From contig JAUSCU010000108.1 of NCBI GenBank assembly GCA_030651065.1, forward strand, positions 1 to 32,379: a DNA stretch of 32,379 nt, read 5' to 3'. The position numbers and the translations under genes are program-made. This stretch comes from Candidatus Omnitrophota bacterium. Lineage in GTDB: Bacteria > Omnitrophota > Gorgyraeia > 1-14-0-20-64-10. Below, in pieces: positions 13,336 to 32,379 of this stretch. Numbering within the stretch: position 1 is the first letter of the stretch; each line of letters begins with the position of its first letter. A model generated the notes under the pieces. That model was not told the origin of the DNA and did not search any database. It saw only the letters and a list, made by a program, of their open reading frames with translations.

Positions 13336-13345
13336 AGGAGGCCAG

Positions 13346-14554
13346 GTGAAACGTCTTAGAACGATTCTGATCTTCCTCATCGTCATTATCGTGGGATTCG
13401 TCGCCGTCACCCGCTGGCTGCCGGCGATGCTCAAGGAACAGAAGGTGACGCGCCTTCCTCCGGGCGTCAAGCCGGAAGGGGCCGCTGTCTCCGAGGAGAA
13501 TATTCCGATCCCGGTCCGCACGTTCAAGGCGGCCCGGATCGAGTTCACCGACCTCCTGCCGACGCTGGGCACCGTCCGGGGGCAGACGGAGGTGGAGCTC
13601 AAGTTCGAGGTGAGCGGCACGGTACAGGCGATCAACTTTCGGGAAGGGGACCTCGCCAAGAAAGGCCAGGAGCTGGCCTCGGTAGATAACCGGGAGGCCC
13701 AGTTGAAGGTGGAGTACGCCGAGTCGAAGCAGGCCACGGCCCAGGCGCAGTTGAAACTGGCGCGGAAACGGCTGTCGGTAAACGAGGAACTATTCCAAAT
13801 CGGCGCGATCATCCGGCCGAAGCTGGAGGAGTCGCAGATTGAAGTCGAGCAGGCCGAGACGCAAGTGAAGACGGCCGTCAAGGAAGCCGGAATTTCCAAG
13901 CATGATCTGGGCCGCACCACGCTCGAGGCGCCGATTGAGGGCGTGATCGGCACGCGGCAGGTGGAGCCGGGCGAGTACGTGACGCCGCAGAACGTGATCG
14001 CCACGCTGATGGACGTGAACTCCGTGTACGTTGAGCTGGGAATCATCGAGCGGGACATTGAGAGGATCCGGTTGGGCCAGAGGGTCAAGGTGAGCGTAGA
14101 CTCACTGCCGAACACCTCATTCGAGGGGAAGGTGGACAACCTGGCCCCGGTCATCGAGGGCAAGTCCCGCACGCTCACGGCAAAGGTGAAGGTGGAGAAC
14201 ACGCAGGGGCAGCTGCTGCCCGGCATGTTCGCCCGGGCGGAGATCGCCGTCTTCGAGAAGCCCAACGCGCTGGTGGTCCCCACCTCGGCGCTCAAAGACA
14301 CCGATGGGGACGGCAAGTTCGAATCGGTCTTCGTGGCAGCTCCGGGAGACAAGGCGGCGCTCAAACCCATCACCTTGGGATACCTGACCACCGACTACGC
14401 CGAGGTGTCCCAGGGCCTCGACGAGGGAGAACAGGTGATCACCGAGGCCCGCGGCAACCTGAAAGATGGGTCGGCCCTGACTTTCCTGGAGCAGGAAGAG
14501 GCCGCCTTCCAACGGGCGGAACCGGAGATTAAAGGGCCTGAGCCGGAAAGGTAG
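13346..14554 (+). CDS. RND efflux periplasmic adaptor (membrane fusion protein)
   Basis: GTG start with AGGAGG upstream; N-terminal TM; VELKFEVSGTVQAINFREGDLAKKGQELASVDNREAQLKVEYAES; TLEAPIEGVIGTRQVEPGEYVTPQ. Confidence 0.92.
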   Translation: MKRLRTILIFLIVIIVGFVAVTRWLPAMLKEQKVTRLPPGVKPEGAAVSEENIPIPVRTFKAARIEFTDLLPTLGTVRGQTEVELKFEVSGTVQAINFREGDLAKKGQELASVDNREAQLKVEYAESKQATAQAQLKLARKRLSVNEELFQIGAIIRPKLEESQIEVEQAETQVKTAVKEAGISKHDLGRTTLEAPIEGVIGTRQVEPGEYVTPQNVIATLMDVNSVYVELGIIERDIERIRLGQRVKVSVDSLPNTSFEGKVDNLAPVIEGKSRTLTAKVKVENTQGQLLPGMFARAEIAVFEKPNALVVPTSALKDTDGDGKFESVFVAAPGDKAALKPITLGYLTTDYAEVSQGLDEGEQVITEARGNLKDGSALTFLEQEEAAFQRAEPEIKGPEPER

Positions 14555-14566
14555 GAGGGCGGCCCA

Positions 14567-17500
14567 TTGAGTTGGCTTCAGTTCAGCATAAAAAGGCCGG
14601 TCACCACCGTCATGGTCTATCTGGGGGTGGTGCTGCTGGGCGTTATCGCCTGGTTCCGCCTGCCGCAGGAGTTGTTCCCGCCGATCACCTACCCGCAGTT
14701 GACCATCGTCACCCGCTACAAGGATGCCGCCCCCGAAGAGATCGAGTTACTCGTCACCAAACCGATCGAGGAGGTGGCCGGTACGGTCTCGGGCCTGCGC
14801 CGGATCAGCTCGATCTCTAAGGAAGAGATTTCCCTGGTCATCGCGGAGTTCAACTGGGACACGAATATGGACTTCGCGGGGCTTGGCGTGCGGGAAAAGA
14901 TCGACCTGATCAAGGAAAAGCTCCCGCGCGGCTCCGATGAGCCGGTGGTGATCAAATACAACCCCTTCGAGCTTCCGGTCCTGGCACTCAACCTCACCGG
15001 CGATGTCACCCCCCATGAATTGCTCACCATCGCTCGCAAGCAGGTCAAGAACGAAATCGAGAAGGTGGAAGGGGTGGCGGCGGTCAACATCTCCGGCGGT
15101 CTCGAAAGGGAGATCCTGGTGGAGGTGGACCAGGGCCGCTTGCAGGCGGCGAACATGCCGATCTCCCACGTGGTGGACGGTCTCTCCCGCGCCAATCTGA
15201 ACTACCCCGCCGGCACCATCAAAGAGGCCTTCTACGAGTATCTGATCCGGACGATCGGGGAGTTCTCGGTGGTCAAGGAGATTCCCGGGATCACGGTCAG
15301 CGTGGACGAGCAGAAGGAAAACCCCGAGAAGGAGCTGCAGCGCCAACAGAAGGAGAGCCAGGGGGGTCCCCTGGAGAAAGAGCAGGGGGTGGCCCCGCGC
15401 CAGCGCTTGGTCCTGCTCAAAGACGTCGCGACGGTCAAGGACACCTTCCGGGAACCGGAATCGATCTCCCGCTACAACGGCCAAGACAACGTCTCTTTAA
15501 ACATCCAGAAACAATCGGGCGCCAACACGGTGCAGTTGGCCAAGAAGATCAAGGAAGAAATTGAGCAGATCCAGCTGTCGCTGCCGCCCGGCGTCAAGCT
15601 CTCGGTCGCTTATGACCAGTCGCTAGCGATCTCCAGCGCGGTCAACGGCGTGATCACCGAGGTGGCGCAGGGAGGGGTGCTGGCGTTCTTAGCGCTGTAC
15701 CTGATCTTGGGCAGCGTCTGGACCGCGCTGAACGTCTCGCTGGCGATCCCGATCTCGGTGCTGGCGACCATCGCGGTCATGTATTTCAGCGGCATGACGG
15801 TAAACGTCATCTCGATGGGCGGGCTGGCGCTTGGCATCGGTATGCTGGTGGATGCCGGCATCGTTGTGGTGGAGAACATCTCCCGTTACCGGGAGATGGG
15901 CCGGCCTCCGGCGGAGGCGGCCGTCGAGGGAACCTCAGAGGTGGCCAGCGCTATTGCCGGTTCCGTTCTGACCACGGTGGTCGTTTTCCTGCCGATGATT
16001 TTCGTGGTCGGGGTCGCCGGGCAGCTGTTCAAGGAGTTGGGGTACACTGTCACGATCTCGCTGATGGCCAGCTGGGCGATCTCGATGACGCTTACCTCCC
16101 TGTTCGCTTCCCGTATCCGGTCGGAGACGGGTGTTCGTTCTCCCATTGAGCCGCTGCTGAAGAGGATCTACCGGCTCGATCTGGGCATGGTCCGGTGGTT
16201 CCTGGCGAACCGGTTGGTCGGGGCGACGGTCATGGTGGCTCTGCTCATCGTCTCGATCTTTACCCTCAAGGGGCTCGACCGGGAGACCCTGCCGCGCGTG
16301 GATCAGGGGCAGTTCATCCTCCGGGTCAACCTGCCGCCGGGGACCCGGCTGGAGTCCACCGACAAGGTGGCCGGCCGGATCGAGCGGGTGCTGCAGGCAA
16401 CACCGGAGGTGCGGGACGTCACGATTACCATGGGCTCTTCTAAGGAGAAAAGGGCCGAGGAGCTGCTGGAGACGTTGGGGTCCAACCAAGCCCAACTCCT
16501 GGTCAACCTGTGGCCGCGCCAGCAGGGGTGGGGTTCTCCGGCGCCCGGCCCCCACATACGCCTGAGGAAAACCTCGGACATCGTTCAGGAACTCAAGGAC
16601 ACCCTGGGGCGGGAGCCGCTCGAGGGGGCGGTGATCGAGTATCTGCTCCAGGAATCCATTTTCAAGTCGGCTTTCACGGCCGGCGCTCCCATCGTGATAG
16701 AGGTTAAGGGGTCCGACCTGCAGAAGATAGAGAAGCTGGCGCTCCAGGTCCAGAAGAAGCTGGAAGGGGTGCAGGGCCTGTACGGGGTTCAGACCAGCAT
16801 GATCCCCCCCTCTCCGGAAACCAAGGTCCATGTGCTCAAGGACCGGGCGGCCACCTACCACTTGTCGGTCAGCGACATTGCGTTGACCGCCCAGACCGCT
16901 TTCAAGGGGTTCGTGGCGTCGAAGTTCAAGGAGGAGGGAAAGGAAATTGACATCCGGGTCCGGCTCCGCAAAGAAGACCGGAACGATATCAACAAGATCC
17001 GGAGCCTGCTGATCCACTCCCCGTTGGACCTAGACGTCCAGTTGGCGGAGGTGGCGTATCTCTCAGTGGGGAAGGGCCCCACGGAGATCCGCCACCTGGA
17101 CCAGCAGCGGACCATCCTCGTCTCGGCCCAGCTGTTCCGAAGGTCGCTCGGGGAAACGTTTGACGAGCTAAACCGCCTGCTGGCCGGCATTAAATTGCCT
17201 CCCGGCTATACCGCGGCACTCACCGGAGAGAACCGGCAGATGCAGGAGTCGTTCCGCTCCCTGGTGTTCGCGCTGATCCTCTCGGTGCTGCTGGTTTACA
17301 TGGTGATGGCGGCGGAATTGGAGTCCCTGTGGCAGCCGTTCCTGATCATGGCCACGATCCCAATGTCGCTCATCGGCGTGGCGCTGGGGCTTTCGGTTAC
17401 CCATACGCCGATCAGCGTGATGTCGGGCTTAGGTCTCATCATCCTCGGCGGCGTTGTGGTGGACAACGGCATCGTGCTGATCGAGTTCATCAACCATGAG

Positions 17501-18508
17501 CGGGCCCAGGGAATGCCCCTGGAGGAGGCGGTAGTCCAGGCCAGCCAGACCCGTTTGCGCCCGATCATCCTGACGGCCGGAACGACCATTGCCGGCTTGC
17601 TGCCTCTGAGTTTGGGATGGCAGCAAGGAGCGGAGCTCCAGATCCCGATGGGAATCACGATCATGTGGGGTCTGGCGATCTCCACCTTCCTGACGCTGGT
17701 CTATTTGCCGACCATCTATGTCGTGGGAGCCCATTTTTTTGAACAATTCTCATGGTTCGCTCCTCCCCCGGTTGAGCCTGCGATGGTCCACGGCTCCGCG
17801 GAGCCGGAGATGCCGGCGGCGGTGATGGCTGTCGCCTCCGCGCCGGTTTCGGTCACCTCGCCCGCCAACGATCTATGGCGGGCTTCACCAAGCCTTCCTC
17901 CGGAGATGCAGGAGATCCCCTCCGATTTCGGGGGTGAAGAAGCCGTGCCCGATAAGGCGGACTCCCCCCTCTTTTTCCTAGGGAGCTCTATCGGTCTTCC
18001 GGAGCCGTCAGAGCCCGCCACGGATCGTTGGCGGGAAGCCCTACCTCCTGTTGCTGATACGGTTGAGGAAACGCCCCTGCTCGAAGAGCCGGCGCCTACT
18101 CCCGAACCAGCGCTGGAACCGGCGCCGGAACCAGAGCCTTCACCCGAACCTCCGGTTTTGGAGGAAGAGCCGCGTGTCATTGAGCCTGAGCCCGCCAAAG
18201 ATCCTTGGCGGGAGCCGGGGCTGCCGCCGATCCTGCCTCCTTCGTTACCGTCCATAACCTCTCCCTCGCTCCCGCCGGCCGGATTTTCGCCGCCTCCTTT
18301 GCCGGCACCATCCGTACCGCTGAATCCCCGGCAGGAAAAATTGATCCAACATCTGAAGAAGCGGGGCCGCATCACACGGGTGGAATATGTGAATCTGACA
18401 GGCGCCTCTGTTCCGACAGCTGCCCGCGACCTTAAGGAGCTGGTGGACGCGGGACTGATCAAGGGGATCGGGCCGTTGGCGAAGGGAAGGTATTATGTCC
18501 TGGCCTGA
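14567..18508 (+). CDS. RND-family efflux transporter (AcrB/HAE1-type) with about 250-aa C-terminal extension ending in a winged-helix domain
   Basis: TTG start; SWLQFSIKRPVTTVMVYLGVVLLGVIAWFRLPQELFP, GGLALGIGMLVDAGIVVVENI, GLGLIILGGVVVDNGIVLIEFI. After the last TM (TFLTLVYLPTIYVVG) there is a Pro/Glu-rich linker then LNPRQEKLIQHLKKRGRITRVEYVNLTGASVPTAARDLKELVDAGLIKGIGPLAKGRYYVLA. Confidence 0.92.
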   Translation: MSWLQFSIKRPVTTVMVYLGVVLLGVIAWFRLPQELFPPITYPQLTIVTRYKDAAPEEIELLVTKPIEEVAGTVSGLRRISSISKEEISLVIAEFNWDTNMDFAGLGVREKIDLIKEKLPRGSDEPVVIKYNPFELPVLALNLTGDVTPHELLTIARKQVKNEIEKVEGVAAVNISGGLEREILVEVDQGRLQAANMPISHVVDGLSRANLNYPAGTIKEAFYEYLIRTIGEFSVVKEIPGITVSVDEQKENPEKELQRQQKESQGGPLEKEQGVAPRQRLVLLKDVATVKDTFREPESISRYNGQDNVSLNIQKQSGANTVQLAKKIKEEIEQIQLSLPPGVKLSVAYDQSLAISSAVNGVITEVAQGGVLAFLALYLILGSVWTALNVSLAIPISVLATIAVMYFSGMTVNVISMGGLALGIGMLVDAGIVVVENISRYREMGRPPAEAAVEGTSEVASAIAGSVLTTVVVFLPMIFVVGVAGQLFKELGYTVTISLMASWAISMTLTSLFASRIRSETGVRSPIEPLLKRIYRLDLGMVRWFLANRLVGATVMVALLIVSIFTLKGLDRETLPRVDQGQFILRVNLPPGTRLESTDKVAGRIERVLQATPEVRDVTITMGSSKEKRAEELLETLGSNQAQLLVNLWPRQQGWGSPAPGPHIRLRKTSDIVQELKDTLGREPLEGAVIEYLLQESIFKSAFTAGAPIVIEVKGSDLQKIEKLALQVQKKLEGVQGLYGVQTSMIPPSPETKVHVLKDRAATYHLSVSDIALTAQTAFKGFVASKFKEEGKEIDIRVRLRKEDRNDINKIRSLLIHSPLDLDVQLAEVAYLSVGKGPTEIRHLDQQRTILVSAQLFRRSLGETFDELNRLLAGIKLPPGYTAALTGENRQMQESFRSLVFALILSVLLVYMVMAAELESLWQPFLIMATIPMSLIGVALGLSVTHTPISVMSGLGLIILGGVVVDNGIVLIEFINHERAQGMPLEEAVVQASQTRLRPIILTAGTTIAGLLPLSLGWQQGAELQIPMGITIMWGLAISTFLTLVYLPTIYVVGAHFFEQFSWFAPPPVEPAMVHGSAEPEMPAAVMAVASAPVSVTSPANDLWRASPSLPPEMQEIPSDFGGEEAVPDKADSPLFFLGSSIGLPEPSEPATDRWREALPPVADTVEETPLLEEPAPTPEPALEPAPEPEPSPEPPVLEEEPRVIEPEPAKDPWREPGLPPILPPSLPSITSPSLPPAGFSPPPLPAPSVPLNPRQEKLIQHLKKRGRITRVEYVNLTGASVPTAARDLKELVDAGLIKGIGPLAKGRYYVLA
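18320..18505 (+). other. Winged helix-turn-helix-like domain fused to the RND C-terminus
   Basis: RQEKLIQHLKKRGRITRVEYVNLTGASVPTAARDLKELVDAGLIKGIGPLAKGRYYV follows the helix / helix-turn-helix / wing pattern of DeoR/Fic-associated winged-helix domains. Confidence 0.7.
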
Positions 18509-21500
18509 GTTTTCTATCCGCCGGCCGATCACGATCCTGATGCTTTGCGTGGCGATGGCCCTCCTGGGCAGCATCGCGATCACCCAGCTTCCGATTGAGC
18601 TGTACCCCAATTTCAGCTTCGGCGACATCCAGATCATCATCGATGTCCGGGGCGGCATGCCGCCTGAGGAAGTCGAGAACCAGATTGCCCGCCCGATCGA
18701 GGAAACGGTGGGCGACGTCACCCACATGAAAGACATGATCTCGATCTCCGAGGAGGCCCGCTGCCGCGTCGTTCTCACCTTTGAACCCGGCACCGATATG
18801 GATTTTGCCGGTTTGGAAGTTCGTGAGAAGTTCTCCAAAGTTCGCTCCAAGCTGCCGAAGGAGATTGAGAAACCGGTCATCGCGAAGTTCAACCAGGAGG
18901 ATGCCCCGATCCTGGTCATGGCAGTCACGGCGCTTGCCTACACGCCGGAGATGCTGCGCCGTCTGGTGGATGAAGAAATCAAGGACCGGATCATGCGGGC
19001 TGAGGGGGTGGCGAACGTCGAGATCGGCGGCGGCCGGGAGCGGAAGATCCTGGTGGAGATTGATCTGGCCAAGCTGCAGTCCTTCCGGCTGCCGCTTGAC
19101 CGGGTGACCCGCCTGCTCAACGTCAGCAACCTCAACCTTCTGGCGGGGGAGGTGGACCGCTCCCGCAATAAATATCTGATCCGGGCGATGGGGGAGTTCC
19201 AATCGCTGCAGGATATCGAGAACCTGGGGGTGGCGGTCACCGCCAGCCGATCGATCATCCGGCTTAAGGATGTCGCCACGGTAAAGGATTCCTTCCTCGA
19301 AGCCACCAGCTACGCCCGGGTCAACGCGCTGCCGGTGGTCTCCCTCTACATCCAAAAGGAGACCACGGCCAACACGGTCAAGGTAGCCCAGAACGTGATG
19401 GAGGCGCTCGACGAGATACAGAAAGACCCGAGGCTGCCGCGGGAGCTGCGCTTCATCATCACGCACGATCAGTCGGTGCAGATCAAGCGGGCCATCGAGC
19501 TGGTCGGGTCGGCGCTGGTCAGCGGCGGGACGCTCGCGGTCCTGGTGCTGGGGGCTTTCTTTGCCACGCACCGGGTGCCCCAACTGCTCTTCATCCCGGC
19601 CGCGCTGGTGATCACGGTACTCTCGGTGTTCACCTACCGGTACGGGAACATCCCGGTGACGGCCATCAACCTGGGGATCAACCTGTTCCTGGGCGCTCTG
19701 CTGGCGCTGGCGATCTGCTGGAAACATCTGCGGCTGACGCTGATTGCCGCGGTGGCAATCCCGGTGGCGACCATCGTGACGTTCGGCTTCATGTTCTTCC
19801 TGAACCTGGCCGCTAAAAAGCTCAACTTCATGAACCTGACGCTGAACATCATGACGCTGGGAGGGCTGGCACTCGGTGTGGGCATGCTGGTGGACAACGC
19901 AGTCGTCGTGCTGGACAACATCCTCAAGCGCCGGGCGGCGGGCGAGTCCCCCCGTCAGGCGGCGGGCAAGGGCGCCTCCCAGATGATGCTGGCCATCGTC
20001 TCCTCCACGATCTCCAGCATCATCGTGTTCCTGCCGATCGTCTTCATCAACAAGGAGATCCGGATCCTGTACATCGGACTGGCGTTGACGATCTGCTTCT
20101 CTCTTCTGGCCTCCCTCTGGGTGGCGCTGACCGTGGTGCCCTTGCTGGCCTCCCGGCTCTCCTTCCCGGTGATCGTCTCCGTCCGCCGGCCGCTTAAGAT
20201 CCGCACGCAATACCGCCGCTTCATCAGCGCGGTCCTGCGCTGGCGCTGGCTAGCCGGGGTTTTCGTGCTGTTCCTGCTCGTCGCCGGATGGCAGATCTAC
20301 AGCTCGATCCCGAAAGAGTTCCTGGGGACCGCCGAGGCGGAAGATTTCACGGTCTTCGTGGAACTGCCCAGCGGCGCCAAACTGGAGATCTCCGACCAGG
20401 CGGTGGGCAAGCTGGAGAAGGTGCTCAACGAGGTGCCGGAAATCAAGTCAGTCTCTTCCCGGATCGAGAAGTGGTCCTCCAAGATCTACGTCAAGCTGCA
20501 CCCGCTTGCCCAACGGACCCGCTCCACGAAGGACGTGATGGACTCGCTGCGCCCGCAGGTGGAGGAGATCGAGCGGGGGTTCCGGGAGGCCTTCATCTAT
20601 TTCGAAGAGCCCCACGAAGTTGAGTCGAACGAGGTGATCGTGGAGATTTACGGCTGGAACTACGAGATCCTGAACCAGCTGGCCGTGGAGATGCTGAAAC
20701 GGATGCAGCAGGTGCCGGGTCTCACCGACCTCAAGATCCGCTGGCGGCGCGGCCGGCCGGAGTGGCTGGTCAAGGTGGATAAGCTGAAGGCGGCCCAGCA
20801 TGGGCTCTCGGTGGATGACGTCGCCCAGGCGCTGCACGCCGAGATGCGGGGTTTAAGGGCCACGCTGTACCACACCGAGTCGAACGAGGTGGAAGTGGTG
20901 ACCCGCCTCCAGGAGGCGGACCGGGCCACGCTGGATAAGCTCAGACGCCTGAGCTTTACGCTTCCGGACCGGACCGTGGTGTCGCTGGAGCAGATCGCCC
21001 GGCTGGAACCGGCGATTGGACCCTCCAAGGTCTGGCGTAAGAATAAGCAGAGGATGATCCAGGTGAGCACCAACCGGGGGCGCTACGCGTTTGGAGAGGC
21101 GGCCCAGAAGGTGTACGGAGCGATCCAGGAGATGCCGTTTCCAGAGGATTACTACTGGCGGTTCGGCTCCAACTACTGGAAGCTGATCCAGAACCAGAAG
21201 GAGCTGAGCTTTGCCCTGGTCCTTTCTCTGGCGCTGATCTTCCTAGTTCTAGCCTCCTTGTTTGAGTCCCTGCTGCAGCCGCTGATCATCATGGCAGAGG
21301 TCCCATTGGGGGCTTTTGGTGCTTTCCTCACCTTGAAAATAGCCCACATGGCGCTGAACGTCGGAGCCCTAATGGGTGTGATACTGTTGGGTGGGATCGT
21401 GGTGAATAAGTCGATCATTCTGGTAGATGAAATCAACCGTCTCAGGGCAGGGGGAATGCGCACAAAGAGAGCGGTGATCACTGCCACCCAGAGCCGGGTC

Positions 21501-21734
21501 AGGCCGATCGCCATCACATCGCTTACCTCCATCCTGGGGCTCCTTCCGCTGGCTTTGAGCCGGACTGAGGAGTCCAGTCTTTGGGCCCCTATGTCCCTGG
21601 TAGTCATCGGGGGCATGGCCTTTTCAACCCTCATGACCCCGTTCGTGGTTCCCAGCCTTTACCTGGTCCTGGAGGATGTGAAACGGTTCGTTAGAAAGGT
21701 GATACGGTTCAAAATCAGCCCAATTCGTAAGTAG
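18495..21734 (+). CDS. Second RND-family efflux transporter
   Basis: SWPEFSIRRPITILMLCVAMALLGSIAITQLPIELYP, GGLALGVGMLVDNAVVVLDNI, GVILLGGIVVNKSIILVDEI; overlaps the 3' end of the first RND gene by 14 nt. Confidence 0.92.
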   Translation: MSWPEFSIRRPITILMLCVAMALLGSIAITQLPIELYPNFSFGDIQIIIDVRGGMPPEEVENQIARPIEETVGDVTHMKDMISISEEARCRVVLTFEPGTDMDFAGLEVREKFSKVRSKLPKEIEKPVIAKFNQEDAPILVMAVTALAYTPEMLRRLVDEEIKDRIMRAEGVANVEIGGGRERKILVEIDLAKLQSFRLPLDRVTRLLNVSNLNLLAGEVDRSRNKYLIRAMGEFQSLQDIENLGVAVTASRSIIRLKDVATVKDSFLEATSYARVNALPVVSLYIQKETTANTVKVAQNVMEALDEIQKDPRLPRELRFIITHDQSVQIKRAIELVGSALVSGGTLAVLVLGAFFATHRVPQLLFIPAALVITVLSVFTYRYGNIPVTAINLGINLFLGALLALAICWKHLRLTLIAAVAIPVATIVTFGFMFFLNLAAKKLNFMNLTLNIMTLGGLALGVGMLVDNAVVVLDNILKRRAAGESPRQAAGKGASQMMLAIVSSTISSIIVFLPIVFINKEIRILYIGLALTICFSLLASLWVALTVVPLLASRLSFPVIVSVRRPLKIRTQYRRFISAVLRWRWLAGVFVLFLLVAGWQIYSSIPKEFLGTAEAEDFTVFVELPSGAKLEISDQAVGKLEKVLNEVPEIKSVSSRIEKWSSKIYVKLHPLAQRTRSTKDVMDSLRPQVEEIERGFREAFIYFEEPHEVESNEVIVEIYGWNYEILNQLAVEMLKRMQQVPGLTDLKIRWRRGRPEWLVKVDKLKAAQHGLSVDDVAQALHAEMRGLRATLYHTESNEVEVVTRLQEADRATLDKLRRLSFTLPDRTVVSLEQIARLEPAIGPSKVWRKNKQRMIQVSTNRGRYAFGEAAQKVYGAIQEMPFPEDYYWRFGSNYWKLIQNQKELSFALVLSLALIFLVLASLFESLLQPLIIMAEVPLGAFGAFLTLKIAHMALNVGALMGVILLGGIVVNKSIILVDEINRLRAGGMRTKRAVITATQSRVRPIAITSLTSILGLLPLALSRTEESSLWAPMSLVVIGGMAFSTLMTPFVVPSLYLVLEDVKRFVRKVIRFKISPIRK

Positions 21735-22108: not shown

Positions 22109-25100
22109 GTGAGAAAAAAAGACCTCTACGATAAAAGCGAAACAACTGGTGCCGAGGGAGCGATCCTGGAATGGAACGCCCCCCGGCGGCGTCCCATCCT
22201 CAAGTTTGTCTCGTCGGTTACCTGCTTTACCTTCATCCTGACCCAGCTCCCGATCCACGCGTACGCCCTGCCTCGCATGCAGCCAGTGGACTCCACGAAC
22301 CTCGTCAACGGCGTCAATAGTGTTTCCAACCTCGCTTTTCAGGAGGAGCGGGCCCAGATGCTGCGCAGGCGGATGGAGGATCTGGGGAAGGTGCAGCGGG
22401 CCGTGGAGGTGGGGTGGCTGACCACCAGCGGTTCTTTCAGCCAGAGCCTCCAGATCTTGGGAGCGGACATCAATCGGGGAGCCGAGTTCCTGCAGCGGAC
22501 CTGGGACCAGGGGGTCAACCGGGTCCAGGAGTTGGCCGGTGTGGTGGCCGGCCCGAACAATACCGGAACGATCGAGTTCAATTACATGCCGATCAAGCAG
22601 GAAGGGGGCAAGCCGATGATGCTCTACTTCCGCAACGGCCTGACCTCGCGGGTCATCGGGGAGAAGACCAAGGACGGTTACCAGGACACCTTCAACATGA
22701 AATATCACAGCAACCGGCTCCTCTCTTCCTACGAATCCATGGAGTACAAGGAGATGCCGGGTCTTCTGGGTGGGAGGCTGATCCTCCGCACAACGAAGTG
22801 GACCGGCGACTGGCTGCCCGGTTCCATGTTCTACGCGAGCTCCGAGACCCAGGCGGTTCGCCAGATCAACCAGGAGAGGATCGAGACCACCGGCTTCAAC
22901 ACCTGGACTGAAGCGGATGTGGACCGCCTCCAGACAAAACTGACGGATATGGAGTCCAAGATCACCTCTGCCGCGGAGCTGGCCTGGGTGGTGGCGATGC
23001 GGCAGGCCCTCTCCACGGGCGCGATCGGCGCGGGTGTGACCTCGGAGGTCACCTCGATCACCGAGCGGAACTACAAGAAGCACGACCGGAGCCGGCCGCT
23101 GGAGTGGAGCCAGAAGCTGACCGATCCCACCGGCGTGGTCGAGTCCAACGTGGTGGTGACCTACAAGGGGCCGAAGGAGAACAACCTCACTTCCTATATT
23201 GAAGAGGGGACCCGGAAGAGCCTGTTTATCAGCGAGGCTGATTTTGAACTGTATCAGGAGTGGATGGGAGAGATCCTGGGCAATCCGGACGCCGGGCGGG
23301 AAGAGCGCTCCGCGGCTGAGCGGCTGGCCGGAATGGTGGCGCGCGGCGAGATCGGCCCCGGCACCACGGTGCAGACCGGTTTCCGGGTGGAGCGGACCTA
23401 CCTGGATTACTCGCCGAAAAATGACCCCCTTCATTACAAGGAGAAGCGTACCTCCAGCGACAGTTCGGTGGTGACCGAGTCTGAAGTGAAGATCGAATAC
23501 GACACGGACCGGCAGGTCAAGCGCCAGGAGGAGAGCCGGACGGAGGTGGGGCATTATACGGTGCGGGACGTGGACGCCTTTTGGGAGGCTTTGCGGGAGA
23601 TCGAGGAGCGCAGCCCCGAACAGGTGACCTCCGCGGAGGGCCAGTTCGCGGCCGACCTGCGGTTCAAGTTGGAGACCGGAGAGATCGGGGAAGGAAGGAT
23701 CTTCTCGCGGGAGATTCAGGTGGTCCGGGAAGGGTTCCTCTACGGCGATTCGATGCAGGCGGTGGAGTGGGACCAGACCACGGTCATCGGCGGCACCACG
23801 CTGAAAGAGAAGGTCCTCACCTACCAGAATGACGCGCAAGGGCGCAGCCTCGAGCTTTTGACCCTTTCAGATGAGCAGACCGCTTACACCGATAAGGACC
23901 GGGAGAACTTACGCCGCCGGGCGCAGGAGGTCTTCTCCGATCCGGACACGACCGACGCGGCCCGCGACGCCGCGCGGGAGACGCTGGCGGCGCTCGACAG
24001 CGGCGTCGCGATGCCGTCGGTATTCCGCCGCAGCTCGGTGCGGTACGAAGGGGACATCCGCTACAACGCGGCCGGCCTGAGGATCCAGTACACACGCCAG
24101 AGCACCTCGAATTCCGACAAGCTGTTGACGGTGGAGGAGGTCGGCGGGACCGTCTACGACACCCGCGGACGGGAATTGAGCTCGCTGCGCAAGGTTCAGA
24201 GGATCGGGACGGACAGCCGAAACGCCTACCTGCTGGAGGACGGCAAGGAGATAACGCCGGAAATCCTGCGCACGCTGCTGGAAGCCTTCTCGAGTGGCGG
24301 CGATCCGGTGACGATCCAGAACCTGATGGACCGGGGGCTGCTAACGGCCACCGACGCTTCCGGCACCGAGATGAGGGAAGAAGAGATCGAGGCGATGCTC
24401 CGGGCCCATCCGGTGAGCATTGAGGGGGCGCCCGGCAGCCGGCCCAGTACCCTGCAAGAGGTGATGGATTTGACGGATGATGCCGACCGGCCCCTGCTTC
24501 GCGTCATGGGCGCCGACGGTTTGGAGATGACCGAAAGGGACGTGTCGGCCTTGCTGAGCCGGGAATCCCGGCCGGCCCACGTGGCCACGATCGATGAGCT
24601 GGTTGAGAAAGGGGTCCTTCGGCTGGAATCGATGCCGATGACGATGAACCAGCACAGCGCGGTGGACCGGTACGGCGCCCAGTACGACGACATGGGCCGG
24701 CTGATCGGGGTCACCGAAGAAACTACCGATCCCGCGACCAACTTGAGGAACCTCACCCGGATTTACGGCACCACCTATGATTCCGAGAGCCGGCAGGATT
24801 CCTCGGTGACGGCTTCCCGGCAATATGGTGAGTCGGTCCGGATGATGCTGTTCCGGGCCGGCAGCGACCAGGAGCTCGATGCCTTGGAGTTGCATGACAT
24901 GATCCAGCAAAACGGCCTCTCGCTTGGGGTTCTGATGCTGCGGGGGATGATTGAGCGCAGGGAGGCGACGGGGGAGCTGGACCAGACCACCACCACTTAC
25001 CGGAAAGCGACCCGCTATTATGACTCCAACCTCGCGGAAGGGTTCTCCGACGCCGTTAGCACGAAGGGCTTCGGCGCGGACGGGATCACGGAAGAGACCC

Positions 25101-28100
25101 AGAGCTCCTTGACCCGCTACAACGAGGCCGGCCAGATGCAGAGCCAGCTTCTGATGAGTCACCGGACCGGCATGGACACCGCCACGGTCCACAAGCTGGA
25201 TGGCAAGGATCTGGTCTATGAGGACCTGCGGAGCGTGATGAACGATACCGGCATGAGCCTGAAAGATCTGTTCGACACGGGCCGGATCACACTGGAAAAG
25301 AAGGCGAGCCTCCTGGACACGCGGACCGAGACCTTCCGGCATGACGTCCAATACGACCCGTTCACCGGGTTCTTGGTTCATCAGGTGGACTTCAGCACTG
25401 GCGATCAGAACCCCGGCACCAACCAGATCACATTCCAGGACGCCAACTACACGGAGCAGGGGCAGCTCTCCAGCGCCCGGACCATCAACCGCTCCGACCT
25501 GTTCGGCCTGGAAGGGAACGCCACCGATGTCTGGACGCAGTACACCCGAACGGAGGATGGCACGCTCCGGTTCGCGGAGGCGGTCGGCAACCAGGCCACC
25601 TTTGACATCTTCGGCAGCACCTCGGCCGCCCGGATCGAGCAGTCCTTCCTGGGGATTGCCGGCCAGAGCCGGATGGTCGCCGGCGTGGTCTCCGGCGTGG
25701 CAGTCGAGGTGGACGGCTCCCATTTTGATGTCGGTCAGATCACTACCTACGCCTACGATCCCTCCGCTATCCTGATCGGAGCCCACGGCTCCAACTTCCG
25801 GGAGGGGAGCGATATCTTCCTGAACTACAGCCGGCGTACCCTTGAGAACCTCTATTCGATCATCAACGGAGACGCGCGGGTGAAACTCTCTTTCTCCACG
25901 GATGGCAGCTTTGGGCCGGAGAGCCCTGTTGCTCAGCCCGGGACCGGCGCCACGTTCACCACGCTGCCGGTTGCGAATGATACGGATATTACCGGGGCTG
26001 CAGCGGCTCCGTTCCTGGTCTCACCGAGCCTCTACATTTCTGAGACGGTTCGTGATTACGGAGCGATCAAAGTTATTGCTTACTATAACAAGAATTCAGA
26101 TGATTCGAAGGGAGCTCTCGCCGGGGTCCAAGTGACGGTGCCGGGGGCTCCCATTATTCTCACCGATGTCACTTCGGTGACCCCGGGAACGGAAACGGTC
26201 TTTCAGGGCGGCAGTGTTTCGAAGTACCGTTACCGGATCAGCGCGGATAATGAGGGCGGTGTTACGGTGACCCGTTTCAGCCTCTCCGGCACGGCGGAGA
26301 CCGAGACCGAAACCTTTTTCAGCCGGACAGTGGAGAGCGGGCCCGGAACGGGGATCTTCACGACGACGCAAAAGAGTCTAGGGCTCACCACCGCTATCGT
26401 CCATTCGATGGGTAGTGGCAGCGTGACGGTCGGTCACCTCAATGGAAATCCCAACGGTACGGTGACCGTCAGTATACCCGGCAGCGTCGCCTCCTTCAGC
26501 AACGTCAGCGGCTGGCCGATCATCAACTCCGACTCCGGCCCGGATGAGATCCGTATCATGGCGGGATCTGATGTTCTTGCTACCTTAGTTCGTAATCAAT
26601 CTAACGAAATCAGTCTTGAGAGAGTCGGTGCTGATACGGTTTCCGTCCAGAGGCTAGTGGGACCGAGCGGAGAGACACTGCCGATACTGCTGACTACTAC
26701 GAAGACAAACCCCGCCATTCCTGCTGATGCTAGGGTAACCAAGGCGGTTTGGACGCACGAGGTCAGCGGGGACATCCTCTTGGCGGTTACCGCCAGCTGG
26801 GCTGCTGACGGACTCTCAGCCAAGGTCATGATCACCGGCATGAATGGAGTGGCCGTCAACCGCCTGCTGGAAGGAGTGACGGACCTGACTTCCTTGAACG
26901 GCGTAGTCAAGATCAGCAAGACGGCCGCCGACTTCCAGGAGATCTCCGTTGGTTCGGACTCTCAGGTGTTGATACGGATCACGGCGGCCGGCGCGCTGGC
27001 TAGCACGATCGAAACCGGTTTGGACGCCACTGGCGCGCGGGTGATCCTCTATAAGAATGCCGCGGGCACGGTCACCACCAAGACGATTCGGGAAGAGACC
27101 GGGACTACGCTCACCCGTGTTGTGACCTACCGGGACGCTTACAATCCTTCCGGAACGAACACGCGCGAAGAGGAGATGATGATCGGGCCCGGTTTCCTGC
27201 GGGTGGATAGCTACGTCAAGGCGGATGATACGGTGGGCTCGCAGGTGGCCCGCCGGGCGATTACCTACCTGAATATGGAAACCGGCCGGGCGACGCAGGC
27301 GGCCAAGATCGAGTATTACCCCGATTCCGCGTCCGTGAAGCAGGTGGAGATAGAGCAGTACAATCCGGACGGGGCAACCGTTAAGGTGATGAAGGTCCTC
27401 CGCGCTCCGGACGGGAAGATCTCCGGGGCGGACCGGCAGCAGTACGATGCCAACGGGAACCGGACCGTGATGAGACTGGAGCCGACCGGCAACGGGGACG
27501 GGAGTCTGAACTTGGTCGCAAGCTATGTCAGCGCCAACGGGGACCGCCTGCGGGTGCTCTGGATCGAGAATACAAGGCGGCAGATCTTCGAGATGACGAC
27601 CGGCACGCCGCGGTTGTGGCAGGTGGTGGTGACTGGCGGCGACCCGGCGGCCTTAACGGATTTTGTGTTCCAGAGCGATGATCAGTGGCAGAAGCTCCTG
27701 ACCGGTCAGACGATCGATGTCACGGTCGGAGCCAAGAGCTGTTCCATCCGCTTGGCTAATCCGGGAGAAAGCGGGGCGGTGGAGCTATCGGTGCCGGTTC
27801 CTCTGCCGGTCGCCATGGCGGTGGAGATCGTCTCTTATACCGGGTATACCGGAATTGGAACTGATCGGCCGGATATGACGATACAGGACCTGATGAAGAT
27901 GCAGTGGGACGGCACCGTCACCGAAGAGGAGATAAAGGCCTTCCGAGCCGGCCAGAAGATCACGGTGGATTTGGGACCCGGCAAGACGGTGACGCTGCGG
28001 CAGGCCTCCATCAATCCGAACACCCTGACGCAGGATCAGAGGAACGCGCTCTACGGCCCCCTCAACCTTGGGGGTGGGAGGGTGGATCTTCGGCAGCGGA

Positions 28101-31100
28101 CGCTCGTCTGGACGGACGGGTATTCCGGCTCGCTGGATTCCGTTGTGCTCAGCGAGGCCGAGAGGAACGACCTGATAAACAACGGTATGGCGGTGCTGGT
28201 GGGAACGCCGGTGCGGCCGCAGCAGGCCTCGGAGGTTTTGCACCTCTTCGACGCGGTCGCTCAAAGGCTAACGCAGGAACAGCAGGAACGGCTTGCCCTG
28301 GGGGATTCAGTGATGTTGGCGGACGGCAAGGTGGTTTCCTACGTGCAGGTGGATCAGCGGGTGGAGCTGGTGACCGCCGCCTATTACGGGACGCCGCTGG
28401 GCATGAGTGTGAGGCAGGACCAAAGTGATTCCAAGCTCTTCCACTACACTTTCCTCAACCCCACGAATCCCACACAGGACCCAGTCAAGATTGACCTGAG
28501 GGCGGACGGGTTTGGGGACGGCTGGCAGAAGGAGTACCAGGGCACGTTGTCTCTGGCGACGACGCTCCAGTACGGTACCGCCGTCCAGGTGAGCGGCTGG
28601 ACCGGGCAGGGGCTTCCTCCTTCCTTAAAGGATGTCACCCTGACCGCCGCCGACTGGGCCTTGCTGCAATCCGGTGGGACGGTCACCCGGACGGTGGGAG
28701 ATCAGGTGTTGACGCTGGAGGCCCGGCCGGTGACAGGTTTAAGCGAACAGCAGGTGAAGGATCTAAAGGCCGGACGGTTCGTTACCGTGGGTTCGGAGGT
28801 GTTGGCCTCCGTGGCAGTTGAGAGCGGCGAGTACTTTGTCACCGGCTCCTCCGGCACGGAACTCATGAAGGTGATCGAGAACGCGGACGGGACCGTGCAG
28901 GCGTTCAAGCCGGTACTGGATGCGAACGGGGATCCCACTCGAGATGTAAATGGGAATGTTGTTTTCTCTTCCACGCCGGTTGCCCTATCCCAGGAGGATG
29001 CCAAGGCGATGCAGGCGGCCGCGCGGAAGCTGGCTCCTCCGGTGGCGGCCGGTGCAAAGAGGACTCGCTCGACCGGGCTGACGCTGAAAAGCGAGCCGCT
29101 CTTTTCCACGGAAATGCTGGACATTTCGGACATGAACGGGAACAACAACCGGCTGGAGAATGCCCAGGTTGCCGGGAACCTTTGGTACACGGTGTCGGGC
29201 AACGCGCTGCCGATGTTCAACGGAACACGGGATTTCAGGGATGACATTGACCAGAGTTTCCTGCTGAACGCGGGCTACGTTCCCTTCTCGGCCAAATATG
29301 GTTTTGTGAGCCGGTTCGAGTACGATCCGAACCTGCCGCCGGCTGCGGTTGGAATCTTTGGAGCGAACGCCGCCGGAGCGGCCGGCCTGTTCGGCCTGCT
29401 GGGAGCCGGATCCCGGGCCCCTCCGGAGATCGCCGGCTCGCTTCAGACGTCTTCTTCCACGCAAGTTTCTCCTCCATCCGCCTCAGTCCAGGCACCTGTC
29501 CAGAACGAACAGATCGCCGAGCAGCTGGACGCGCAGTTCCGTGATCGCCAAAATTTGACCCAGCGAGTACTCGGCCGCATTGGGGATCTGCTCCGCGGAA
29601 TGATGCAACGGCTCCAGGGAGTTTCCGCGGGCGCTTTGGGGGTCCTCACCGAGTCGAAAATTGTCGAGATCCTCGCGCAGCTCGTAGCCGGGTTCGGCGC
29701 TTTCCTGGTCAACTGCGGCGCGATCGCGCTCGCCGCGATGCTGCAGGCGCGCCACGCCCTCCTTCCCACCCAGGTGGATCTCATGGTGGCGAATCTCCTC
29801 GTGGAACAGATGAGGGATCAAGGCCTTGGACCGATGTTGGCCGCGGGAATCGCTGGGGGGGTTGGCCCGCTGCTCTCCGCCCGCACGATCCGCCTCGTGG
29901 CCGGGTTGTCCAACGTGAATCTGCAGACGATCCGCGTCGCCGGCAGCAGCATGGAGCTCTTGCTGGCCATGTTGTCCAGCGCGGGCAGCCGGGCGATCAT
30001 CGGCCTGCCGGGCCACTTCGTCACGGCCCTTGGTTTGGAGAAGGATTCCGCCGGCAATTCGGTGGTCCGCTTCCTGGATTCCGACAACAAGGAGTACCGG
30101 CTCGGCCTGCCGCAGTTCCTCAATGTCTGGCGGGCGGGTGGCGGCTATGCGCTGGTGGACAAGGATGCGGCGCCTGTGACGGCGGCGGCGACGACGGGCC
30201 CGGTTTTCGCTCCTCCGACGATCGCCGCGATCGCGCCGGTTCAGCCGCCCCCGGCGGTTTCTCCGGCACCCGAACCGGAGATTTCTTCTCCGGTCGAGAG
30301 GATCTACACCTTCCCGGTGATCCAGGTGGGCCCGGACGAGGAGCGGGGGGTGGTGGGGGCGCAGCCGGTTCCTCCGTTGCTGCCGGGTCAGGTGGATCGG
30401 GTCGAGGCCGATGGCACCGCATCCCACAACGAAAGCTTTGTGGAGTTCGAATTCGACGATTCCGGGAAACTGATCGGGGCTCGGGGCGGATCTTTGAGCT
30501 GGGGGCTCACGGTCTTCGGCGAGGCCTTCTTCACCCAGACGACCGACGAGTATGTGATTACCGAATCCCTGGGGCAGGCGAAGGTCAGCCGCTCCACGGC
30601 GGAGACCACCACCCATCGGGCGGACGGCTCTCACGTTGACACCAAGACGACGACCAATTTCACCTACACGAATTCGGGTACCGATCCAGCGGAGTTGCCC
30701 GATTACTATCGGAACCCCGATGGGTCGGTGAAGGATGTCTTCTTGGACGGCGCGGGCCAGGTGCGGGAAGGTTTGACCCTGCGGGTCGAGGGATCGGTTC
30801 ACGGAGTGGGTGATACGGTCTTCGGCGAGACCTTCATGCAGGACAGCATCCAGAGATACGACATCATAGCGGGCGGGCCGAAGGTAATCCGGACGGAGAC
30901 GACCACCGATACCGTGGCTGTGGACGGCGGCCGCAGCCGGAGCACGCAGGTAGTCGAGCAGGAGTATGACAAGGAGACCGGCCTGCTGACGGCCATGTTC
31001 CATCCCAACGACGCGCCGGACGTGTTTACTGAATCGGAGGATGTGTTTGGCAACAAGACCCTCACCCGAGTGCTGGAGCAGTTCGAGCGCGTCAACGGCC

Positions 31101-32379
31101 AGGGCAAGGTGGTGCTGGCCCACACGGAATCGATCACCACCGGGATTGACGGAGCCACCTCCCTCTCGATCTCGGAGACCCGGAACTTCTACTCTGACGG
31201 CACCGAGGATCCCAGCGCTTTGTCCCCCGAATACAGCCAGTCCGCGCCCAACGGGATGCAGCCTCCTTCCGGCCGGACCTGGATCGGCAACTTGACGGCG
31301 GTGACCGAAGAAGAGGTGGGATATTCGGATTTCGAGGGCCTCCCCCAGGTCTATAAAGGAACGGTCACCCTTTCCACGGATGCGTTCGGCTTCAGCAAGA
31401 CCGTCTCCCTCGTTAAGAATACCTATGAGATCGTGTCCGGCCAGCCGAAAGGGGTCTTGAGTGAGACCCATTCCACGCAGAGATCCAACGACGGCAGCGA
31501 CGCCGTGACGGTCAGCCTTGTCCGGACCGGCTACACCGATGGGACCGAGGATCCGGCCGGCCTGGCCGCGGAATACCACAAGGACCATCCGGAGGGGAAG
31601 GTCTGGAAGGGGCTTATTAAGGAAGTGAAGGAGCAGGAGGTGGTTTTCGACAACCCGTTGACCGGCGCCAGCGAAACTTACATCGGCGCGGTCACGGTAG
31701 CGCACGATGCTTTCCAGTTCACCACATCGGTTTCCAAGGCCAGCAACCGGTACGATCTGGTCTACGGCATCTCCCGGGTGGGTGAGACGCTGACCACCAC
31801 CGAGAACCTCAGCCTGGACGGCGCCAACTCCGCCACTCTCAGCACTACCTCCTATGAGTACACAGTCCGGGAATCGGCCGACTTGGATGGTGACGGCACC
31901 GTGACTGCCTCCGAATTGGAGATTCTGCTGCCCGGCGTGGCGCCGGAGTCCCGCGCGGCCTACGTGGATCCATCCGGCAAGCTGTACCCAACCCTTCTGA
32001 AAGCGGTCTCCGGTTTCAGCGCGACCGACGGCGAAGACGCGTTCGCGTTCAACAAGTTCCACACCGACACGACCGACACGTACTCCGTGATCCAGGGCCA
32101 GGCTCGCGTGGCCACCAGCCACAGCGTCACGACCACAACCGGCGATGACGACAGCACGTCCACCACCACCGCGGATGTCGTGAACACCTACAGCTCCGTC
32201 GCGAAACTGACCGGTGTGACCGGCGGCAGCGTCACGGATGGCGAAGACGCGTTCAAGTTCAACGCGTTCCACACCGAGACGACCGACACGTACGATCAGG
32301 CCTTGATCACCACCACCGGCCAGGCTCGTGTGGCCACCAGCCACAGCGTCACGACCACAACCGGCGATGACGACAGCAC
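22109..32379 (+). CDS. Giant exported repeat protein (at least 3,423 codons, 3' end beyond window)
   Basis: GTG at 22109 (MRKKDLYDKSETTGAEGAILEWNAPRRRPILKFVSSVTCFTFILTQLPIHAYALPRMQ...). The frame is still open at the window end: spot checks from 22109 through 29714, 30509, 31880 and 32327 are in phase. The ORF track reports no stop-terminated ORF for it. It has a signal-like N-terminus, multiple repeat families and a C39-like domain. Confidence 0.88.
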   Translation, partial: MRKKDLYDKSETTGAEGAILEWNAPRRRPILKFVSSVTCFTFILTQLPIHAYALPRMQPVDSTNLVNGVNSVSNLAFQEERAQMLRRRMEDLGKVQRAVEVGWLTTSGSFSQSLQILGADINRGAEFLQRTWDQGVNRVQELAGVVAGPNNTGTIEFNYMPIKQEGGKPMMLYFRNGLTSRVIGEKTKDGYQDTFNMKYHSNRLLSSYESMEYKEMPGLLGGRLILRTTKWTGDWLPGSMFYASSETQAVRQINQERIETTGFNTWTEADVDRLQTKLTDMESKITSAAELAWVVAMRQALSTGAIGAGVTSEVTSITERNYKKHDRSRPLEWSQKLTDPTGVVESNVVVTYKGPKENNLTSYIEEGTRKSLFISEADFELYQEWMGEILGNPDAGREERSAAERLAGMVARGEIGPGTTVQTGFRVERTYLDYSPKNDPLHYKEKRTSSDSSVVTESEVKIEYDTDRQVKRQEESRTEVGHYTVRDVDAFWEALREIEERSPEQVTSAEGQFAADLRFKLETGEIGEGRIFSREIQVVREGFLYGDSMQAVEWDQTTVIGGTTLKEKVLTYQNDAQGRSLELLTLSDEQTAYTDKDRENLRRRAQEVFSDPDTTDAARDAARETLAALDSGVAMPSVFRRSSVRYEGDIRYNAAGLRIQYTRQSTSNSDKLLTVEEVGGTVYDTRGRELSSLRKVQRIGTDSRNAYLLEDGKEITPEILRTLLEAFSSGGDPVTIQNLMDRGLLTATDASGTEMREEEIEAMLRAHPVSIEGAPGSRPSTLQEVMDLTDDADRPLLRVMGADGLEMTERDVSALLSRESRPAHVATIDELVEKGVLRLESMPMTMNQHSAVDRYGAQYDDMGRLIGVTEETTDPATNLRNLTRIYGTTYDSESRQDSSVTASRQYGESVRMMLFRAGSDQELDALELHDMIQQNGLSLGVLMLRGMIERREATGELDQTTTTYRKATRYYDSNLAEGFSDAVSTKGFGADGITEETQSSLTRYNEAGQMQSQLLMSHRTGMDTATVHKLDGKDLVYEDLRSVMNDTGMSLKDLFDTGRITLEKKASLLDTRTETFRHDVQYDPFTGFLVHQVDFSTGDQNPGTNQITFQDANYTEQGQLSSARTINRSDLFGLEGNATDVWTQYTRTEDGTLRFAEAVGNQATFDIFGSTSAARIEQSFLGIAGQSRMVAGVVSGVAVEVDGSHFDVGQITTYAYDPSAILIGAHGSNFREGSDIFLNYSRRTLENLYSIINGDARVKLSFSTDGSFGPESPVAQPGTGATFTTLPVANDTDITGAAAAPFLVSPSLYISETVRDYGAIKVIAYYNKNSDDSKGALAGVQVTVPGAPIILTDVTSVTPGTETVFQGGSVSKYRYRISADNEGGVTVTRFSLSGTAETETETFFSRTVESGPGTGIFTTTQKSLGLTTAIVHSMGSGSVTVGHLNGNPNGTVTVSIPGSVASFSNVSGWPIINSDSGPDEIRIMAGSDVLATLVRNQSNEISLERVGADTVSVQRLVGPSGETLPILLTTTKTNPAIPADARVTKAVWTHEVSGDILLAVTASWAADGLSAKVMITGMNGVAVNRLLEGVTDLTSLNGVVKISKTAADFQEISVGSDSQVLIRITAAGALASTIETGLDATGARVILYKNAAGTVTTKTIREETGTTLTRVVTYRDAYNPSGTNTREEEMMIGPGFLRVDSYVKADDTVGSQVARRAITYLNMETGRATQAAKIEYYPDSASVKQVEIEQYNPDGATVKVMKVLRAPDGKISGADRQQYDANGNRTVMRLEPTGNGDGSLNLVASYVSANGDRLRVLWIENTRRQIFEMTTGTPRLWQVVVTGGDPAALTDFVFQSDDQWQKLLTGQTIDVTVGAKSCSIRLANPGESGAVELSVPVPLPVAMAVEIVSYTGYTGIGTDRPDMTIQDLMKMQWDGTVTEEEIKAFRAGQKITVDLGPGKTVTLRQASINPNTLTQDQRNALYGPLNLGGGRVDLRQRTLVWTDGYSGSLDSVVLSEAERNDLINNGMAVLVGTPVRPQQASEVLHLFDAVAQRLTQEQQERLALGDSVMLADGKVVSYVQVDQRVELVTAAYYGTPLGMSVRQDQSDSKLFHYTFLNPTNPTQDPVKIDLRADGFGDGWQKEYQGTLSLATTLQYGTAVQVSGWTGQGLPPSLKDVTLTAADWALLQSGGTVTRTVGDQVLTLEARPVTGLSEQQVKDLKAGRFVTVGSEVLASVAVESGEYFVTGSSGTELMKVIENADGTVQAFKPVLDANGDPTRDVNGNVVFSSTPVALSQEDAKAMQAAARKLAPPVAAGAKRTRSTGLTLKSEPLFSTEMLDISDMNGNNNRLENAQVAGNLWYTVSGNALPMFNGTRDFRDDIDQSFLLNAGYVPFSAKYGFVSRFEYDPNLPPAAVGIFGANAAGAAGLFGLLGAGSRAPPEIAGSLQTSSSTQVSPPSASVQAPVQNEQIAEQLDAQFRDRQNLTQRVLGRIGDLLRGMMQRLQGVSAGALGVLTESKIVEILAQLVAGFGAFLVNCGAIALAAMLQARHALLPTQVDLMVANLLVEQMRDQGLGPMLAAGIAGGVGPLLSARTIRLVAGLSNVNLQTIRVAGSSMELLLAMLSSAGSRAIIGLPGHFVTALGLEKDSAGNSVVRFLDSDNKEYRLGLPQFLNVWRAGGGYALVDKDAAPVTAAATTGPVFAPPTIAAIAPVQPPPAVSPAPEPEISSPVERIYTFPVIQVGPDEERGVVGAQPVPPLLPGQVDRVEADGTASHNESFVEFEFDDSGKLIGARGGSLSWGLTVFGEAFFTQTTDEYVITESLGQAKVSRSTAETTTHRADGSHVDTKTTTNFTYTNSGTDPAELPDYYRNPDGSVKDVFLDGAGQVREGLTLRVEGSVHGVGDTVFGETFMQDSIQRYDIIAGGPKVIRTETTTDTVAVDGGRSRSTQVVEQEYDKETGLLTAMFHPNDAPDVFTESEDVFGNKTLTRVLEQFERVNGQGKVVLAHTESITTGIDGATSLSISETRNFYSDGTEDPSALSPEYSQSAPNGMQPPSGRTWIGNLTAVTEEEVGYSDFEGLPQVYKGTVTLSTDAFGFSKTVSLVKNTYEIVSGQPKGVLSETHSTQRSNDGSDAVTVSLVRTGYTDGTEDPAGLAAEYHKDHPEGKVWKGLIKEVKEQEVVFDNPLTGASETYIGAVTVAHDAFQFTTSVSKASNRYDLVYGISRVGETLTTTENLSLDGANSATLSTTSYEYTVRESADLDGDGTVTASELEILLPGVAPESRAAYVDPSGKLYPTLLKAVSGFSATDGEDAFAFNKFHTDTTDTYSVIQGQARVATSHSVTTTTGDDDSTSTTTADVVNTYSSVAKLTGVTGGSVTDGEDAFKFNAFHTETTDTYDQALITTTGQARVATSHSVTTTTGDDDS
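23222..25320 (+). repeat. Degenerate composite repeats (helical segment plus YD-like beta strands) in the giant protein
   Basis: FISEADFELYQEW..LAGMVARGEIG; YTVRDVDAFWEAL..LRFKLETGEIG; YLLEDGKEITPEILRTLL..LMDRGLL; GADGLEMTERDVSALL..LVEKGVL; KLDGKDLVYEDLRSVM..LFDTGRI, interspersed with RYGAQYDDMGRLIGV-type strands. Confidence 0.6.
27913..28840 (+). repeat. About 32-aa repeats of the form L(S/T)xxxxxxLxxGxxVxVGxxVL in the giant protein
   Basis: TVTEEEIKAFRAGQKITVDLGPG; VLSEAERNDLINNGMAVLVGTPV; RLTQEQQERLALGDSVMLADGKVV; TLTAADWALLQSGGTVTRTVGDQVL; GLSEQQVKDLKAGRFVTVGSEVL. Confidence 0.6.
29480..30175 (+). other. C39/papain-like cysteine peptidase-type domain within the giant protein
   Basis: Candidate Cys in FLVNCGAIALAAML (TGC at 29714-29716), candidate His in GLPGHFVTALGLE (CAC at 30014-30016), followed by VVRFLDSDNKEYRLGLPQFLNVWRAGGGYALVDKD. 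Confidence 0.6.
30509..32379 (+). repeat. Seven-copy C-terminal repeat family, divergent to near-identical, continuing past the window
   Basis: Units begin near 30509, 30815, 31040, 31379, 31706, 32036 and 32246; consensus (D/T)(A/V)FxFxxxxTxxxxxYxxxxGQxxVxxSxTxTTxxxDGS. The last two share a 62-bp block (32096-32157 and 32318-32379) with one visible mismatch. Confidence 0.8.

Follow-up and report, generated by a model that had tools for sequence, protein, structure and literature searches.

The window, i.e., the whole analyzed stretch of 32,379 nucleotides, is an entire contig (C61) of a 1.4 Mb genome (88.7% complete) and ends within a giant open reading frame (ORF). Immediately upstream of the giant gene lies an RND efflux operon (OEP, HlyD-like and two AcrB-type genes; window 11518-21734), whose first AcrB-type ORF encodes 1313 aa with a DeoR-like HTH match at the C-terminus. 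The features of the giant gene are as follows:

22109..32377, plus strand: giant, putatively exported ORF (>3423 aa, GTG start, open at the contig end)
22184..22267, plus strand: Sec signal-peptide-like segment RRRPILKFVSSVTCFTFILTQLPIHAYA, AYA directly ahead of LPRM (translation judged by eye)
29537..30160, plus strand: predicted C39-like domain of papain fold, including a helical extension at its N-terminus (core, about 29672-30157)
29714..29716, plus strand: predicted nucleophile Cys (TGC), residue 2536, motif NCGAIALAAML
30014..30016, plus strand: predicted catalytic His (CAC), residue 2636, motif GHFVTALGL
30077..30079, plus strand: predicted third catalytic residue, Asp (GAT), residue 2657, motif FLDSDN
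30170..30320, plus strand: Pro/Ala-rich linker, variable in length and sequence (AF2 pLDDT < 50)
30326..30361, plus strand: candidate self-cleavage site VGPDEERGVVGA in double-glycine-leader register (V-12, E-8, V-4, G-2, A-1), predicted cut after 30361
30362..32377, plus strand: C-terminal region, starting with PVPPLLPGQVDRVEADGTASH... and including repeat-like FVEFEFDDSGKLIGARGG units, which ends with the contig

A sequence-only reading of this DNA had proposed a C39/papain-like domain at 29480-30175 inside a giant surface protein, and this frame is indeed open and belongs to the ORF starting at 22109 and running to 32377. The TGC codon named as that of the nucleophile is present at 29714-29716, and the Cys/His/Asp layout of C39 type was recovered at 29714, 30014 and 30077, with triad order and spacing as in C39 (C79, H179 and D200 of the segment). 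A Pro-rich linker does adjoin the domain (30170-30320), and no ABC exporter occurs within the window, both as described. The claim that the domain lies between repeat regions is true only loosely, as no DNA-level tandem repeats were detected in the giant ORF by Tandem Repeats Finder. The domain occupies residues ~2505-2683 of the >3423-aa window ORF and is, thus, internal rather than C-terminal. An open frame of 964 codons runs antisense to the giant gene (window 29483-32377, minus strand), probably as an effect of GC-rich codon use.

A single-sequence search of the window domain returned nothing relevant in Pfam, NCBIfam or PDB, nor did a five-member profile of the window family in PDB; a first scan of genome contigs with the single window protein gave no match, and no relatives were found in viral contigs. 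The A3 profile, built from 19 embedded domains, matched C39 peptidases in PDB (7n87, 1.2e-8; LahT 6mpz, 1.9e-8; PCAT1 4ry2, 3e-7; ComA 8hf6, 5e-6), and 16 of its 19 members matched the Pfam C39 family PF03412. A held-out profile, built without the window's family, retrieved the window's homologues at E-values of 4.5e-8, 1.2e-7 and 3e-4 and the window itself at 0.06 (full length, triad aligned), with zero matches to 200 shuffled copies and the reversed protein. Direct hhalign comparison connected the window family with the Ser-type family (E-value 1.1e-8, probability 95.6) and the Cys-type family (E-value 2.8e-5, probability 74). For an AF2 model of window 29480-30427 (pLDDT 70.3, pTM 0.70), the best PDB matches found by Foldseek were papain-like peptidases (staphopain first, probability 1.00, E-value only 0.011), and no C39 structures were present among the best 50. 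Because of these profile, held-out, hhalign and AF2/Foldseek matches, the window domain is, as far as sequence profiles and a predicted structure can tell, C39-like with a papain fold and distinct from an exporter protease. The proposed fold has, thus, held up against both the C39 profiles and structure prediction, which gave no non-papain alternative (best matches papain-like, E-values of at least 0.011).

Four close homologues of the window domain (42-62% identity; 41-56% over the region aligned within the family) come from the same taxonomic family. In public databases they are recorded as Candidatus Omnitrophota MAGs, at least two of which are labelled as coming from groundwater. The window family (n = 5) shares N-C-G, the His and S-D-N throughout, the position of the Asp at 30077 is D in four members and E in one, and the Cys is never lost, unlike in a CLD of the HlyB type, while the oxyanion Gln expected at -6 from the Cys is replaced by Gly. 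On a broader scale, PF03412 matches were observed in 37 of 59 relatives, many of them within very long ORFs, and the A3 profile retrieved members from 195 of the 384 class genomes and from 149 of the 285 genomes sampled across the phylum, with open frames bearing embedded domains reaching 57,756 aa. Of the 44 ORFs whose N-terminus is visible, 41 have a module that begins 88-256 aa past the upstream stop, shortly after a signal-peptide-like segment; the window family, with its domain beginning at residue ~2,505, is an exception in position. The nucleophile column over 95 domains contains Cys (64), Ser (30) and one gap, the His is conserved in 94 of 95, and the third residue is mostly D (60) or E (31). 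The embedded domains lack the oxyanion Gln at -6, which is present in two separate C39 proteins (L013/L014) of the same phylum; in the LahT complex the distance between the corresponding Gln and the relevant oxygen is 4.3 A, which puts its oxyanion role in doubt (PMC6363468).

A candidate explanation involving a helper exporter with its own C39 domain was rejected, since no C39-ABC protein was seen among the 59 relatives. The same set contained no TIGR03796 matches above cut-off, and among the matches listed all start at position 132 or beyond.

Directly after the embedded domains we observed a recurrent 12-mer, [LIVM][STN]xxE[AL]xx[IV]xG[AS], which in most relatives takes the typical form L-S/T-x-x-E-A-x-x-I-x-G-[A/S]. 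This corresponds to the published double-glycine leader pattern, in which C39 substrates display Leu(-12)-X3-Glu(-8)-Leu(-7) and end in G-G, G-A or G-S (PMC6363468). A site score was defined over seven positions; its residue classes were fixed once the pattern was known, and controls were scored identically. A score of at least 6/7 within 60 aa downstream was obtained for 61 of 91 domains (counts that, given shared descent of the members, do not represent independent events), as compared with 1/91 in the 60 aa upstream, 19/1,820 shuffles and 9/484 windows farther downstream. A later set of 19 domains, drawn mainly from other classes, yielded 10 with a score of at least 6 and 16 with a score of at least 5. 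All 28 Ser-type members scored at least 5. The column entropy of Cys-type members amounts to 0.00 at -2 and 0.89 at -1 (P1) and rises to at least 3.33 from +1 (P1') onward. Conservation thus breaks off at the bond presumed to be cut, as would be expected of a cleavage site; some unscored positions (e.g., -6) are likewise constrained. The self-processing suggested by the sequence-only reading has, therefore, gained support, as most relatives carry a site of double-glycine type immediately behind the domain, the window's own match being weaker than most of theirs.

The idea of a polyprotein with many sites along the giant was not supported: the 57,756-aa ORF (G358:C2) contains 10 matches of at least 6 vs. 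8.8 expected, and its sole 7/7 match is the one beside the C39 domain, which argues for a single cut.

In the window protein itself, VGPDEERGVVGA stands after a ~45-residue disordered Pro-rich linker and ahead of a conserved region. It scores 5/7 (V instead of L at -12, G instead of S at -11, E instead of L/A at -7). A score of 6 is reached by three other 12-mers of this protein; therefore, score alone would not single it out. At the equivalent place, relatives of the window carry VGEEEERGITGT, VGEAEERSVLGA and VGEWEERQMAGT despite very different linker lengths, and one member of the family (L046) has merely ...LLTGA at the site. The adjoining domain may account for part of the conservation of the site. 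In the AF2 model of 29480-30427, residues 281-290 are ordered (average pLDDT 81; strand 280-282, helix 285-290) behind a linker with pLDDT < 50, and this segment resembles the LahT leader helix, which is described as having two turns (PMC6363468). A second AF2 model (L045 first, with a decoy site) was poor (pLDDT 57.5, pTM 0.41), and its site was not ordered.

The best reading of the combined data, to which we assign a probability of about two in three, is C39-like processing in cis, namely a single self-cut of the giant protein by an exporter-free peptidase domain. The giants would probably undergo self-cleavage at a single defined position, because phylum-wide the domains sit just before a matching site. 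According to this scheme, the giant protein would be exported by Sec and the domain would then fold outside the cytoplasm, both of which appear very likely. The downstream 12-residue segment ending in G-A (VGPDEERGVVGA in the window) would be captured in the leader-binding groove of the same chain; such binding in cis is predicted as likely at the phylum level and as somewhat favored for the window protein. The Cys-His-Asp triad would cut once, after G-A, and a Cys-dependent cut at this bond is, overall, reasonably probable. The cut would part the N-terminal portion and the protease from the C-terminal array; in the window, the region from 30362 onward would be detached. We infer export, catalysis, action in cis over action in trans, timing and the function of the portion set free; most simply, a cut would serve to break a cell-surface giant at a fixed point or to release it from its anchor. 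A broader generalization, in which giants throughout the phylum share a module for a single self-cut that is related to exporter C39 peptidases and also exists in a Ser-nucleophile version (LHFGxSAF) of the same papain fold and chemistry, is proposed only tentatively and appears rather doubtful at present.

The main rival, which we regard as unlikely, is a non-catalytic clamp, in which a pseudo-peptidase would hold the leader-like segment and leave it uncut in the manner of the HlyB CLD, perhaps keeping the chain export-competent or folding the linker back. It would be in line with the absence of the oxyanion Gln, with the replacement of Cys by Ser in a third of the family while the site is still kept, and with the ability of CLDs to bind substrates without proteolysis (PMC6363468). 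Nevertheless, restriction of the nucleophile to Cys or Ser and near-invariance of the His over ~95 diverse domains are stricter than binding should need, and a small P1 combined with a free P1' resembles a protease site. Action in trans, in which other giants or foreign proteins would be cut at G-G/G-A and the downstream match would be incidental, is much less probable. This possibility draws on Cpe1, a ComA/LahT homologue and T6SS toxin that cuts GyrB/ParE after a double glycine (PMC12136450), as well as on matches of the A3 profile to CdiA and DUF4150 effector chains; however, effector domains are C-terminal, whereas the domain described here is internal or near the N-terminus, and in most members the site is placed just after it. 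Least probable of all is a papain-like transpeptidase, in which an amine would resolve the G-A acyl-enzyme and the N-terminal part would be joined to a surface polymer or protein: transfer reactions are possible for thiol acyl-enzymes, but no acceptor motif was found and C39 relatives of known activity hydrolyse.

A comparison of C39-like cis-processing with established systems revealed both shared and distinct features. The C39 domains of PCAT/AMS exporters (LahT, PCAT1, ComA; PF03412) are homologous, with the same Cys-His-Asp layout and the same site register (L-12/E-8/I-4/G-2/[G,A,S]-1). Unlike them, the embedded domains are without an ABC transporter, have the site on the same chain and C-terminal to the protease, would be extracytoplasmic via the signal peptide, lack the oxyanion Gln, carry a helical N-terminal extension and, in one subfamily, have a putative Ser nucleophile. 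C39 domains are also known as parts of toxins (PMC3482391), which, together with Cpe1 (PMC12136450), represent the closest non-exporter uses. These Tox-PL-C39/Cpe1 proteins likewise contain a C39-related domain outside an exporter, with Gly-Gly specificity in the case of Cpe1, but they are C-terminal toxins acting on foreign proteins, whereas the embedded domains are internal or N-terminal with their own site adjoining. Autoprocessing domains of polymorphic and other large toxins (HINT, ZU5, caspase-like and papain-like; PMC3482391) share the principle of an in-chain protease that frees part of an exported protein; they differ in family and site type, and the Omnitrophota module is mostly located right behind the signal peptide rather than before a C-terminal toxin. 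Finally, the HlyB CLD has the C39 fold with a changed active site and a chaperone-like role, and it is reported to be without proteolytic activity, whereas the embedded domains keep Cys or Ser and are followed by a leader-type site.

The giant proteins of Omnitrophota rank among the largest predicted proteins on record. Their ORFs have been described as having few annotated domains (PMC10066038), and their integrity after synthesis has been described as unclear (PMC10066038; PMC12057145). In the openly accessible journal articles searched, an embedded C39 domain accompanied by a cis site was not reported. Here, a C39-type peptidase appears to bear its own leader-like substrate on one chain, and such a protease-plus-site module offers a mature N-terminus or break point to look for directly, probably also in Velamenicoccus archaeovorus, whose giant's peptides have already been measured. 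The published LiM giant of this organism comprises 39,678 aa (PMC10066038), and a 39,687-aa ORF of a single-contig genome in our set (G063; 1,974,201 bp), with the module at residues 88-266 and a weaker site (LEEAVAKAVQGA, 5/7), is probably the same protein, as judged on ORF length. This ORF (L147-L152; G063:C1:29823-148884) contains nine leader-like 12-mers scoring at least 6 vs. 0.4 expected from whole-protein shuffles; therefore, the case against a polyprotein is weaker for the G063 protein. One of its 12-mers scores 7/7 (LTPFDMMALMGS at residue 6492) and is located far from the C39 domain.

Several variants were observed within the broader family. The Ser subfamily LHFGxSAF (L047, L053, L058, L061, L132 and others; alignment A6) is large, with Ser invariant at the nucleophile position, and it keeps the leader-like site, which is usually followed by a mostly hydrophobic segment starting FF, GW or C; papain-like families with Ser for Cys are known and little explored (PMC10318531). 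Another subgroup (lnCGVYAL/lnCGIYAL; L103, L105, L118, L120, L123, L124) displays a different site, ~VxDxMxAFIWG[SN]KW, at a similar place. Two C39-like domains per protein are present in L057, L079, L096, L100, L112 and L113, the second of which (Cys-His-Glu, then a short Pro-rich stretch, e.g., ERAPP) is without a cleavage-like site. An identical sequence around the domain was found in two genomes of different classes (L071 in G005:C9 and L131 in G404:C32; ORFs of 45,037 and 26,028 aa), possibly by binning contamination, so that the class of this ORF is uncertain. Distinct from the embedded kind are short separate C39 proteins of ~250-390 aa (L020, L023, L024, L027, L031, L032, L034), which have lipoprotein-like N-termini and repeat-like (possibly TPR) C-termini.
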